From Candidatus Methanoperedens sp. (GTDB lineage Archaea > Halobacteriota > Methanosarcinia > Methanosarcinales > Methanoperedenaceae): DNA of 59,542 nt. Made by a program: the position numbers and the translations under genes. Each line of letters begins with the position of its first letter. Position 1 is the stretch's first letter. The stretch is taken from positions 1 to 59,542 of the forward strand of contig JAHFDG010000020.1 of assembly GCA_023249105.1 (NCBI GenBank), read 5' to 3'. Below, piece after piece: positions 3,494-53,920 of this stretch. The notes beneath the pieces were generated by a model that saw nothing but the letters and a program-made list of their open reading frames with translations, was not told where the DNA came from and did not search any database.

Positions 3494-3558
3494 ATAGTTA
3501 AGAGCCTATTTTGTAAACATATAATATGAAAAATTTGCATCCTAGCGCTTTTACGGTG

Positions 3559-3606
3559 CGTGATTTTATTCACCGCCAAGACGCAAAGGTCGCAAAGATA
3601 GTTTAA
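3559..3606. repeat. Intergenic CGCAAAG-type repeat, copy 1
   Basis: The stretch contains a TTTTATTCACC segment followed by spaced CGCAAAG units (ACGCAAAGG, TCGCAAAG). The same order of units occurs, on the opposite strand, at 18409-18500 and 53799-53862. It lies in the 268-nt convergent gap between the two cytochrome pairs. The rest of that gap holds the terminator at 3461 and otherwise nothing I recognise. Confidence 0.6.
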
Positions 3607-3717
3607 ATCAGCCATGGAAAGCGCAGATGAAGCGTATTTGAAAGATTTGCACTTATTTTAATTCGCTATCTACGCATTTCCTCAACCTTACTATCTACAC
3701 GAAACTTGGAAAAAAAA

Positions 3718-18354: not shown

Positions 18355-18408
18355 GCCTTTAATTAAGCGTTCAATAATATTAAAACTTATGAATGATATA
18401 GTTAAGAA

Positions 18409-18500
18409 CTAAACAATTAAAACTATCTTTGCGGCCTTTGCGCTCTCTGGTGAATAAAAACGCATACAGCAGAGACGCCAAGAGCGCAAAGTGTTCATAA
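18409..18500. repeat. Intergenic CGCAAAG-type repeat, copy 2 (hairpin form)
   Basis: It contains CTTTGCGGCCTTTGCGCTCT and, 50 nt on, GCCAAGAGCGCAAAG, so the two arms can fold back on each other. The first 60 nt are nearly identical to 53799-53862, including AAACAATTAAAA and TCTCTGGTGAATAAAA. It lies between the pilin cluster and the S10 terminator. Confidence 0.7.
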
Positions 18501-22450: not shown

Positions 22451-22550
22451 AATATAATTTACCTCTTTTTTTGATGAACCCGTCTAAACGATTTGAATAT
22501 CTTTGGGTTCATCAAATATTGGAATTTTTTGGTTCTCTATTATTCTATCC

Positions 22551-23696: not shown

Positions 23697-24140
23697 TTAC
23701 TGAATAATCACATCGTTTATATTATGATGCCTCAAGGAGAGCTTTTTTACCTTTTCGATATTTTTGCCGTCTCTCCCGATGGCAAGCCCCTTCTCTTTAG
23801 TTGGAACTTCTACATAAGCTATACGCTTGCCATCACTAACTGTAATATTTACATTTTTCACTAAAACTGGATGAAATGCATTTTTCACGAACTCGGCAGG
23901 GTCATCAGAATGTTCGATTATTTCAATATGTTTTCCGATTGTCTTCTTCACGCGATTGATATGGTCCCCGCCTTTCCCGATTGCCAATCCCATATCTCCG
24001 TTTTTAACAACAAACAACAACCTGTTGTTCTCTGAATCCTCAAAACAGTCTTTTGTCCTGGCACCGGTCATGCTTTCAAATAATGCTATATACCGTATTC
24101 CATCGGTGCTTAACTTGACTTCACTCTTTGATGAAACCAT
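23697..24140 (-). CDS. nusA: NusA-like KH-domain RNA-binding protein
   Basis: This 147-residue archaeal short NusA consists of two KH domains (GLAIGKGGDHINRVKKTIG and GLAIGRDGKNIEKVKKL show both GxxG loops) without the S1 or polymerase-binding parts. It is thought to bind RNA in transcription or termination. The ribosome binding site AGGAG at 24150-24154 and the first codons lie in a 49-nt segment (24127-24175) that is repeated at 24276-24324, on the other side of a hairpin element. It is therefore a partially duplicated gene start. Confidence 0.92.
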   Translation of the reverse strand: MVSSKSEVKLSTDGIRYIALFESMTGARTKDCFEDSENNRLLFVVKNGDMGLAIGKGGDHINRVKKTIGKHIEIIEHSDDPAEFVKNAFHPVLVKNVNITVSDGKRIAYVEVPTKEKGLAIGRDGKNIEKVKKLSLRHHNINDVIIQ

Positions 24141-24169
24141 TGATAATCACTCCTTTTCAGACGGGTTCA

Positions 24170-24289
24170 TCAAAAAGCGACACCTCGCTTTATGCGGTAT
24201 CCACGTATGGCGATGCCATACGTGTCTGCGAAGTAAAGCGGCGCAACGGTTTTTGATAAAACTTTCTTAAAGTTTTTTGATGAACCCAT
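24170..24289 (-). CDS. 39-codon small frame in the hairpin element before nusA
   Basis: The frame starts at ATG 24289 with its own AGGAG (24299-24303, nine-base spacing) and ends at TGA 24170. It encodes a basic peptide that begins MGSSKNFKKVLSK, has TVAPLYFADTYGI in the middle and ends [10 protein letters not shown]. The end matches the small frame before rpoA2 (YRIKRGVAL), and the middle matches the one before the DUF58 gene (TVAPLYFADTYGF). It could be a real small protein or a by-product of a repeat whose frame is kept open. Confidence 0.5.
   Translation of the reverse strand: MGSSKNFKKVLSKTVAPLYFADTYGIAIRGYRIKRGVAF
24174..24276. repeat. Triple-hairpin element, copy before nusA
   Basis: Three stems follow one another on the plus strand: AAAGCGA/TCGCTTT (24174-24191), CACGTATGG/CCATACGTG (24202-24224) and AAAACTTT/AAAGTTTT (24258-24276). 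The last stem is the same in the copies at 25832 and 28513. The middle stem has another sequence in those copies but is still a perfect palindrome. Confidence 0.75.
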
Positions 24290-24325
24290 TGATTTTCACT
24301 CCTTTTTAGACGGGTTCATCAAAAT

Positions 24326-24613
24326 TCATGCTCCCTTGAATGAGAGTATTTCCGACTCTCCCGGTTCCAACACTGCAAGCACAGCAATCGAAAAAGGTTT
24401 GCCGCATGCAACTCCAAGGTCAACGCTAGTTCCCGGAAAATTAATAACAGGTACGTCCTTCACTTCATTCCTTGTCTTTTCAAAACAATTAGACGACACT
24501 ACTACAACCTGTGCTTTCCCGTTCTTTACAGCATCCGTGGTCTGTCTTGAGCCGATTACTACTTTCCCTGTAGATAAAACGTTTCTCAATACTTTGTTAA
24601 TATCAGTTTCCAT
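24326..24613 (-). CDS. rpl30e: Ribosomal protein eL30
   Basis: This 95-residue protein of the L7Ae/L30e family has GKVVIGSRQTTDAVKNGKAQ and VVVSSNCFE in the RNA-binding fold and VACGKPFSIAVLAV at the end. It lies between rpoA2 and nusA as usual in archaea. It starts 12 nt after the rpoA2 stop. The gap to nusA is unusually long at 185 nt and holds the hairpin element. Confidence 0.93.
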   Translation of the reverse strand: METDINKVLRNVLSTGKVVIGSRQTTDAVKNGKAQVVVVSSNCFEKTRNEVKDVPVINFPGTSVDLGVACGKPFSIAVLAVLEPGESEILSFKGA

Positions 24614-24625
24614 ACTTATTCTCCT

Positions 24626-25850
<1,225 letters not shown>

Positions 25851-25854
<4 letters not shown>

Positions 25855-28490: not shown

Positions 28491-28621
28491 CTACTCAATT
28501 TTGTGCTACCGAAAAACTTTGAGAAAGTTTTATCAAACGAGGGGTATGCTTCGCATACCCCAACACTGCGCAAGCCGAAGTTTCGGCTTGTGCACGCCAC
28601 GTTTACTGGGGCATCGGTCAT
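28487..28621 (-). CDS. 44-codon small frame joining rpoB1 and rpoA1
   Basis: The ATG (28619-28621) overlaps the rpoB1 stop as ATGA, and the TGA stop (28487-28489) overlaps the GTG of rpoA1. The encoded peptide starts [19 protein letters not shown] and ends [12 protein letters not shown]. The hairpin element lies inside it in the opposite direction to the other copies, so the peptide is unrelated to theirs, but the gap is still fully open and coupled at both ends. Confidence 0.45.
28512..28590. repeat. Triple-hairpin element, inverted copy between rpoB1 and rpoA1
   Basis: The stems AAAACTTT/AAAGTTTT (28513-28531), GGGGTATGC/GCATACCCC (28541-28561) and CAAGCCGAA/TTCGGCTTG (28571-28590) follow in the order seen on the minus strand of the other copies, so this copy is inverted relative to the operon. 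The outer stem differs from the other copies in sequence but not in form. Confidence 0.75.
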
Positions 28622-32317: not shown

Positions 32318-32418
32318 CGGGCTCGGAGGGATTTGAACCCTCGACCATCGGGTATCTTTTCATTCCTGTTACGGATTGAATAAAAGCCCGGTGCTCTGCC
32401 TGACTGAGCTACGAGCCC
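32318..32418 (-). tRNA. tRNA-Lys (anticodon TTT) with an intron in the anticodon loop
   Basis: The acceptor stem GGGCTCG/CGAGCCC, D arm GCTCAGTCAGGCAGAGC and T arm GAGGGTTCAAATCCCTC are complete, with discriminator G73 and no encoded CCA. The loop CTTTTA contains the anticodon TTT and is followed by an intron of about 27 nt after position 37. The intron pairs with the anticodon (CTTTTATTC with GAATGAAAAG). The anticodon stem has four good pairs and a C27-A43 mismatch. Archaeal splicing endonuclease would remove the intron. Confidence 0.88.
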
Positions 32419-39587: not shown

Positions 39588-41008
39588 TAGAAGAAAAAGA
39601 GCCATTCGAGATACGCGTTTCACGGCTGGGGGGTTATTTGACACGCGCCTACGAGCATAATAAACCGTCTATTCTCTTTGCATTGTATCTGAGTGAATTT
39701 TTGCGCTCTGATGCTGAAAAATCTCTTGAAAAATTATTGAAGGAACAGGGACTTGATATCTTAAATGTTGATGCAGGAGAACATAAAGATCTGCCAGCCC
39801 TTTTCTCATCAATAAATTCAAATAATACCGTTTTTTTCGTGCATAACATTGAAAAGAGTTTTCCAGAATCTCTCCAGTATTTAAATTTTAAGCGGGAAGA
39901 ACTAATTGAGCATCATGCCAAGGTTGTATTCTGGGTAAAAGAGGAAGAGCTTGCACGTATCAGCACAGGGGCGCCTGATTTCTTTGCTTTCAGGAACCGT
40001 GTGGTAGAGTTTATGGAAGTACCCACTGCGGAAGAGCGCAGACCTGCTCTCGTTGAATTTGCTTCAGAGATTGAATATAAATCACTTGATGAGATCAAGC
40101 GCAGTATCGAATTAAAAGAGAAGCTGCTGTCTGAGCTTTCCAATGAAGCTGAAATAAGCGAATACCTGCTAGGTTCGCTTGGAGTATTATATTCTAAAAT
40201 CAGTTTTTATAAAAAATCGATTGAGTATGGCGAAAAAGCCTTAAGGATAGCACAGGAAATTGGAGACAAGAAAGGTGAAGGTGCGCGACTTGGAAACCTA
40301 GGAATCGCTTATTTTCTTCAAGGAGATGCACGGAAAGCTATTGAATATCATGAAAAGGCGCTGAAGATTGCTCAGGAAATTAAAGATAGGCGAGGGGAAA
40401 GCAGACGGCTCGGGGGATTAGGCAGTGCTTACACTTTTTTGGGTAATGCTCGGAAAGCTATTGAATATTATGAAAAGGCATTGAAGATTGCTCGGGAAAT
40501 TGGAGACAAAAAAGGTGAAGGCGTATGGCTTGGAAACCTTGGCAATGCTGTACAAAATGTAGGCGATACGAAAAAAGCCATCGATTATTATGAAAAAGCT
40601 TTTAAAATCGCTCAGGAAATTGAAGACAAGGAAAATGAGGGCGTAATCCTTGCAAACCTTGGCAATGTTTCAAGTGCTCTAGGAGATACGAAAAAAGCCA
40701 TCGATTATTATGAAAAATCCTTGAAAATTTTTCAAGAAATCGGAGAAAGAAAAAATGAAGGTATTTCTCTAAACAATCTGGGTGTTTGCTTCAAAAATGA
40801 CAAGAAATACCAAGAAGCGCTCGCATGCTACCTGCTCGCCAAAGATATACGCACCCAGATAGAAGACCCAGATCTTAAACAAACTGAAGCAAATCTCAAA
40901 AACCTCAAAGAGGAACTCGGCGAAAAAGATTTTGAAAAACTTGAAGCAGAGGTAGCGCCAAGAGCAGCGGAAATTGTACGAAAGATACTGGAAGGAACTT
41001 CGGTTTGA
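39584..41008 (+). CDS. TPR-repeat protein with N-terminal P-loop-derived domain, partner of the ATPase
   Basis: This 474-residue protein has an N-terminal domain of about 165 residues (SILFALYLSEFLRSDAEKSL, NTVFFVHNIEK, AKVVFWVKEEELARI, PDFFAFRNRVVEF). It looks like a P-loop NTPase fold without the usual Walker A. Six tandem TPR repeats of 40 residues follow (each like LGNLGNAY..GD..KAIEYYEKALKIAQEIGD), similar in kind to LGN/Pins. They are encoded by 120-nt units at about 40170-40870 that are alike enough to recombine. The pair resembles combinations seen near bacterial sensors and defence genes. No effector domain is visible. Confidence 0.75.
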   Translation: MIEEKEPFEIRVSRLGGYLTRAYEHNKPSILFALYLSEFLRSDAEKSLEKLLKEQGLDILNVDAGEHKDLPALFSSINSNNTVFFVHNIEKSFPESLQYLNFKREELIEHHAKVVFWVKEEELARISTGAPDFFAFRNRVVEFMEVPTAEERRPALVEFASEIEYKSLDEIKRSIELKEKLLSELSNEAEISEYLLGSLGVLYSKISFYKKSIEYGEKALRIAQEIGDKKGEGARLGNLGIAYFLQGDARKAIEYHEKALKIAQEIKDRRGESRRLGGLGSAYTFLGNARKAIEYYEKALKIAREIGDKKGEGVWLGNLGNAVQNVGDTKKAIDYYEKAFKIAQEIEDKENEGVILANLGNVSSALGDTKKAIDYYEKSLKIFQEIGERKNEGISLNNLGVCFKNDKKYQEALACYLLAKDIRTQIEDPDLKQTEANLKNLKEELGEKDFEKLEAEVAPRAAEIVRKILEGTSV

Positions 41009-53751: not shown

Positions 53752-53798
53752 TGATAGCCAAAGCTTAAATAAACGCATAAAAGAATTATAGTTAAAAC

Positions 53799-53862
53799 GT
53801 AAACAATTAAAACAATCTTTGCGACCTTTGCGCTCTCTGGTGAATAAAATCGCACACCGCAA
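53799..53862. repeat. Intergenic CGCAAAG-type repeat, copy 3
   Basis: The sequence AAACAATTAAAACAATCTTT, GCGACCTTTGCGCTCTCTGG and TGAATAAAA is nearly the same as the copy at 18409-18470. It lies at the start of the 335-nt gap after the MoxR operon. Confidence 0.7.
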
Positions 53863-53920
53863 AGTAGGTTATGAACGAAGTTCATGGATATCAATGAAAA
53901 AGAACAACAATATGGACATT

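Follow-up and report, generated by a model that had tools for sequence, protein, structure and literature searches.

In the 59,542-nt stretch of Candidatus Methanoperedens DNA analysed here (hereafter the window), the gap before nusA holds two near-identical segments placed around a hairpin element, which raises the question of where the start of a core gene came from and how it came to be present twice. On the minus strand, the gene order is rpoA2, L30e, a 185-nt gap, nusA, rpsL, rps7 and EF-2, the names being backed by Pfam domains (NusA-like KH domain, L7Ae/L30e family, S12, S7, elongation-factor-G domains and Rpb1 domains); the gene for ribosomal protein L30e (24326..24613, minus strand) is the upstream neighbour of nusA (23697..24140, minus strand). 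A repeat search of the window recovered the direct repeats of the preliminary description at 24127-24175 and 24276-24324, i.e. 49 nt with 92% identity and 149 nt apart; the repeats thus stand but their unit is 48 nt, the 49th base being a common adjoining A. Each unit is a copy of a palindrome, designated palindrome A, and the hairpin element B between them (24175..24275, minus strand) belongs to a separate dispersed family. The downstream copy of A (24127..24174, minus strand; cmsearch 66.3 bits), assigned also from empty and filled sites, holds the nusA Shine-Dalgarno (SD) motif and start in its loop and right arm, and the upstream copy (24276..24323, minus strand) scores 71.4 bits with cmsearch. 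As first described, both carry AGGAG and an ATG on the minus strand and the nusA SD and start codon are duplicated: the SD-like AGGAG lies in the loop at 24150..24154 in the downstream copy and 24299..24303 in the upstream one, with the ATG at 24138..24140 for nusA (MVSSKSEVKLS..., of which SEVKLS is the native part) and at 24287..24289 upstream. The latter does open a small frame of 39 aa running through B (24170..24289, minus strand), which we do not take for a gene, as what follows the upstream A differs by eye in G019 and G016. The upstream copy folds at -17.0 kcal/mol (0/200 shuffles as good) and the downstream one at -13.1 kcal/mol (5/200), and an Rfam search of the window returned only two tRNAs at gathering score, A corresponding to no known structured RNA. 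The block reported near 22476 before EF-2 is present as well, but it is a complete palindrome of the A family (22470..22516, plus strand) lying in the rps7/EF-2 gap and opposite to EF-2; the same copy with like flanks occurs in G010 (L232).

The answer we favour, with a probability of about 0.86, is that each repeat represents one copy of a non-autonomous mobile palindrome of Ca. Methanoperedens, which would have landed at the nusA start and now apparently provides it. It is built on insertions with matching empty sites, a 1-bp duplication, open frames, dispersed copies and weaker hairpins, as observed across the genomes compared. In its architecture, A consists of TTTGATGAACCC, a loop and GGGTTCATCAAA, mostly over 47-48 bp, with 12-bp arms and a loop of 23-24 nt, and the consensus arms are perfect over 12 bp and form terminal inverted repeats. 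The abundance of A in its own genome is not due to chance: the half-site TTTGATGAACCC with at most one mismatch has 70 matches there (41 + 29) vs. 5 for a reversed control, and the full-palindrome pattern is found at four places vs. none in the control. A covariance model (R1) built from 11 copies retrieved A in 26 of the 34 genomes of the family (E <= 0.01). Under stricter filters (E <= 0.001), it was found in 26/31 Ca. Methanoperedens genomes and in 0/118 others of the order (149 sampled), and A is confined to one genus within the order searched. With both strands counted, the rows per genome reach 45 in G010, 30 in G016 and 25 in the own genome (G000).

Sixty regions around A copies, mostly high-scoring, together with the window and other loci made up 75 sources, in which 149 matches were reduced to 83 rows once hits on the opposite strand and repeated views of a place had been removed. 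In 56 of these rows A is 47 nt long. The consensus leaves one frame open on each strand (LMNPSKKDEYHWVHQ and LMNPMIFILFRRVHQ), and copies with GTCAAA have the FDEP...SSK frame open too. At the position of the start codon, TTG is found in 53/83 rows and ATG in 14/83. AGGA occurs in the loop of 31/83 rows and is absent from 52/83 (TTG and AGGA together in 14/83), a recount upon which the SD was dropped as a constant part of A. The GATAAACCC and GATGAATCC subtypes show concerted changes in both arms; copies of the GATAAACCC subtype at L035 (G000:C22, two copies) and L038 (C42) lie within a longer repeated segment.

A inserts with a 1-bp target duplication, which is unusual for a transposon: among 55 deduplicated copies, i.e. 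the 83 rows minus those with similar or short flanks, the same base flanks both sides in 42 (expected 27%, P 3e-14), shifted flank comparisons gave equality in 12-23/55 and a 2-bp duplication was seen in 6/55. The 13 copies lacking the 1-bp duplication include those at A-A and A-B-A junctions, nusA copies and a relic. A 47-bp copy plus the duplicated base therefore adds 16 codons, and by their frames and empty counterparts such insertions appear to lengthen conserved genes by about sixteen codons without breaking them. The NAD(P)H-hydrate dehydratase gene carries A in frame in G010 and lacks it at the other 29 of 30 loci. QueA has an in-frame copy of 50 nt, i.e. 17 codons, in the own genome and G010 among 25 aligned loci (five of 30 were left out, their alignment anchor not being located), and subunit A of Topo VI has one in G021, G018 and G019 (3 of the 25 loci shown, 26 of 30 having entered the script). 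Judging by frame, A is also carried by a NOG1-like GTPase with two copies, by an S4-domain protein at its end, by an oxidoreductase that we take to be a glutamate synthase subunit, by a nucleotidyl transferase and by others. Nine of ten A-carrying proteins compared with Pfam were matched, the tenth being a fragment taken for PurF. The distribution is uneven: G000 and G010 have the QueA copy and G021, G019 and G029 lack it, which fits the tree poorly and may be due to loss, exchange or repeated insertion, and the Topo VI copy is present in G021, G018 and G019, but not in G029 or G000. The QueA copies at L355 (G000:C76) and L354 (G010:C102) lie at the same place, where QueA of G007 (L357) carries a dissimilar insert of about that length. 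In G019 (L204, 1302-1348), A stands behind an ATG close to where a glutamate-synthase-like gene begins and is open in frame as M-FDEPAKKGGLIMGSSK-LERQ. The half-site search of the own genome yielded no candidate for an autonomous element with the ends of A, the unpaired exact half-sites resembling chance or coding matches, and one exact-pattern scan of one collection of viral contigs returned no exact copy of A.

At nusA itself, located in 29 of the 34 family genomes, 20 loci have no insert, seven have A and two (G007 and G028) a relic of A. At each of the 20 insert-free loci, the stop of L30e and the start of nusA share 1-8 nt. A sits at this very point in G000, G019, G029, G014, G021, G016 and G010, and the N-terminus read from the ATG in A is M(G/V)SSKSEV vs. 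MSEV elsewhere, the start inside A (ATG-GGT-TCA-TCA-AAG) continuing in frame into what was formerly the second codon. The old ATG is intact in G010 and G021 (ATG[A]GAGTGAAG), where it runs into a stop in A, and is decayed in the other five, by one changed base in G019 and G029. An in-frame stop lies 2-3 codons upstream of the ATG of A at all seven loci (in the window, a TGA three codons upstream), and therefore no upstream nusA start is usable. Apart from a GTG as the eighth codon in G016, the first 12 codons hold no alternative start in any of the seven, the window included. The right arm of A appears to provide the only plausible nusA start in these genomes. This start is preceded by AGGA or AGGAG in 6/7, G014 having no AGGA, and the L30e stop itself lies inside A in G014 and G021. 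In G010, the loop at nusA and that of an A before L30e are two bases apart, one of which turns TTG into ATG. In a tree of five linked proteins, the seven genomes are grouped with 44% support and their subgroups of five and two with 100 and 99, respectively; G007 and G028, whose decayed insert was recognised by model R1, are placed apart from them.

A second gene, encoding a DUF2240 protein, seems from its junctions to have had its start remodelled like that of nusA, in six genomes. There A is at the gene start in 6/30 loci and absent in 24/30, the G010 copy being without a left arm. The junction is intact in G021 (ATG[A]GTCTGAC), in 5/6 the new ATG has an in-frame stop three codons ahead of it, and in G000 and G029 the stop of the preceding gene is supplied by A. 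Taken over both genes, the 13 start-providing copies have ATG in 13/13 and AGGA or AGGAG in 10/13, AGGA being absent from DUF2240 of G016 and G010. Their folds are weaker (median -10.8 kcal/mol, n=13, vs. -16.3 for the others, n=62; P 2e-5), in a comparison biased by the choice of the other copies with a stem-rewarding model and by the non-independence of the 13.

The doubling of A has to be considered together with element B, matched in 21 of the 34 family genomes, all in Ca. Methanoperedens. B has a duplication of its own: the copy between rpoA1 and rpoA2 (25775..25851, minus strand) is flanked on both sides by ATGA, the site is an empty overlapping stop-start in L114, and the duplicated ATGA is this overlap, both genes being left intact. 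Another B or B-like copy fills the rpoB/rpoA1 gap (28511-28560). In the own genome, 19 copies of B were examined: full A copies stand alongside the one at nusA alone, two others have one loose half-site match and 16 have none. Conversely, a B-like motif lies within 130 bp in only 8/83 A rows (two motifs, <=3 mismatches), and that at L196 (G008) is about 130 bp from A. That the doubling is linked with the hairpin element, as initially proposed, is borne out by the recurrence of A-B-A with mutually similar A copies: besides nusA (G000, G019 and, altered, G016), it is found at DUF2240 of G019 and at G010:C122, where B is reversed with one end shorter and the A copies are identical. The ATGA duplication of B fails to explain the A-B-A junctions, as none was seen at those inspected. 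The comparison of the L30e-nusA gap in relatives revealed A without B in four of the seven nusA loci, as a single A in G014, G021 and G010 and as A-A in G029. A-A without B, the very finding by which the preliminary description said it would be refuted, is also present at L234, L264 and L239. The arrival of B and the doubling of A thus go together, though not in the manner of an ordinary target duplication, given that A-A without B and single A occur too. If the 48-nt repeats recombined, A-B-A would revert to A, which could explain the single A in some relatives.

Within the mobile-palindrome reading, the order of events could be that A was first in tandem and that B then entered between the two copies, an order that we hold possible but lean slightly against: the A-A arrangements just listed, nusA of G029 included, speak for it, whereas in G019 the A copies beside B share one loop and the outer A1 differs, which fits duplication with the arrival of B or later gene conversion. 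It is far less credible that A is a host regulatory leader, i.e. an immobile RNA hairpin with SD and start serving translation genes such as nusA and EF-2. The hairpin does enclose SD and ATG, the paired arm changes of the two subtypes would suit it, and nine sense copies lie, by eye, just before an apparent native SD (L223, L225, L227, L228, L242, L254, L240, L258 and L222); but a leader fits neither the in-frame copies in unrelated proteins nor the inverted copy at EF-2, the stems are weaker precisely where A provides the start, and there are the empty sites and the 1-bp duplication. Finally, a long target-site duplication made by the entry of B into the L30e-nusA gap, as the preliminary description suggested, is very improbable despite the likeness of paired A copies at the three A-B-A loci, and as the origin of the 49-nt sequence it is refuted by A without B, B without A and the 1-bp duplication and empty sites of A itself, the segment being rather an independent mobile palindrome that would have replaced the original nusA start.

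For this mobile palindrome, the following history can be proposed. A would have landed directly behind the nusA ATG in the ancestor of the seven-genome group, in one event or two, that ATG having until then lain within the end of the L30e gene. As TTG is the triplet most often found at this position in the A family, the insertion may have been survivable because A brought a weak start, improved later to ATG while the hairpin weakened, and nusA would have passed from coupling with L30e to a start of its own. Later on, A would have doubled around the separate B, either because B entered at an A-A junction or through template switching at the shared TTTTTGAT ends, and the duplicated nusA start would therefore be a duplicated A. 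More speculatively, and with rather more doubt than belief, A might be seen as a portable translation-initiation module, i.e. a selfish palindrome whose TTG or ATG is in register with its 3' end and whose loop, in some members of the family, holds a ribosome-binding stretch ahead of that triplet, with a first arm or loop able to end the preceding gene and a frame-keeping length of 47+1, features by which it could therefore land on start codons or inside essential genes without killing, and by which it would repeatedly have re-founded gene starts and uncoupled operon genes.

As regards known systems, A shares with miniature inverted-repeat transposable elements (MITEs), which are short and have terminal inverted repeats, target duplication and many copies, its 12-bp inverted ends, its many copies and a target duplication, unusually short at 1 bp; in contrast to them, it has that 1-bp duplication, no autonomous partner in the half-site search of its own genome and little beyond two arms and a loop. 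Rickettsia palindromic elements (RPE) are described in two reviews as dispersed palindromes found in frame in conserved genes and in intergenic regions, of 105-146 or about 150 bp, bacterial and with a target-site duplication listed as unknown (PMC10969869, PMC2229807). A is likewise dispersed and in frame in conserved protein genes, both being found here, but it is archaeal, 47-48 bp long, makes a 1-bp duplication and apparently supplies the start of two genes; it would thus seem to work like an RPE, though we would not class it as one, set apart as it is by length and host as described. Coding palindromes are also cited for Wolbachia and Methanocaldococcus jannaschii in the available parts of PMC2996958 and PMC2229807, and those of M. 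jannaschii (2005), compared here through the description given by these citing papers, resemble A in being archaeal and fused in frame into protein genes. The nearest start-codon case looked into is the pneumococcal BOX, a dispersed repeat able to hold a start codon, whose frames, according to PMC3049150, correspond to hypothetical proteins alone and have no good Shine-Dalgarno sequences, whereas A serves conserved genes. Among titles and abstract openings of the literature on Methanoperedens and palindromic or inverted repeats, no description of A was met; the literature search likewise returned no coding palindrome in methane-oxidising archaea and no report of core genes whose ribosome-binding site and start codon had been taken over by a palindrome, and the accessible part of the Borg tandem-repeat paper contains no word beginning with 'palindrom' (PMC9879509). 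We regard A as a new archaeal variant of coding palindromes, a kind known from Rickettsia and Methanocaldococcus. Thanks to the empty sites in close relatives, the steps from a mobile sequence to a working gene start are readable and testable, and users of gene callers should be warned that the nusA start in these genomes falls inside a mobile element.

Apart from A and B, the window holds a further family of dispersed repeats, with sequences such as CTTTGCGACCTTTGCG (18397-18474, 53787-53864 and 3550-3608), a 120-nt unit in five tandem copies at 40214-40813, the others being 61-76% identical to the reference copy, and a tRNA match of 101 nt at 32318-32418, which is longer than usual and perhaps contains an intron.
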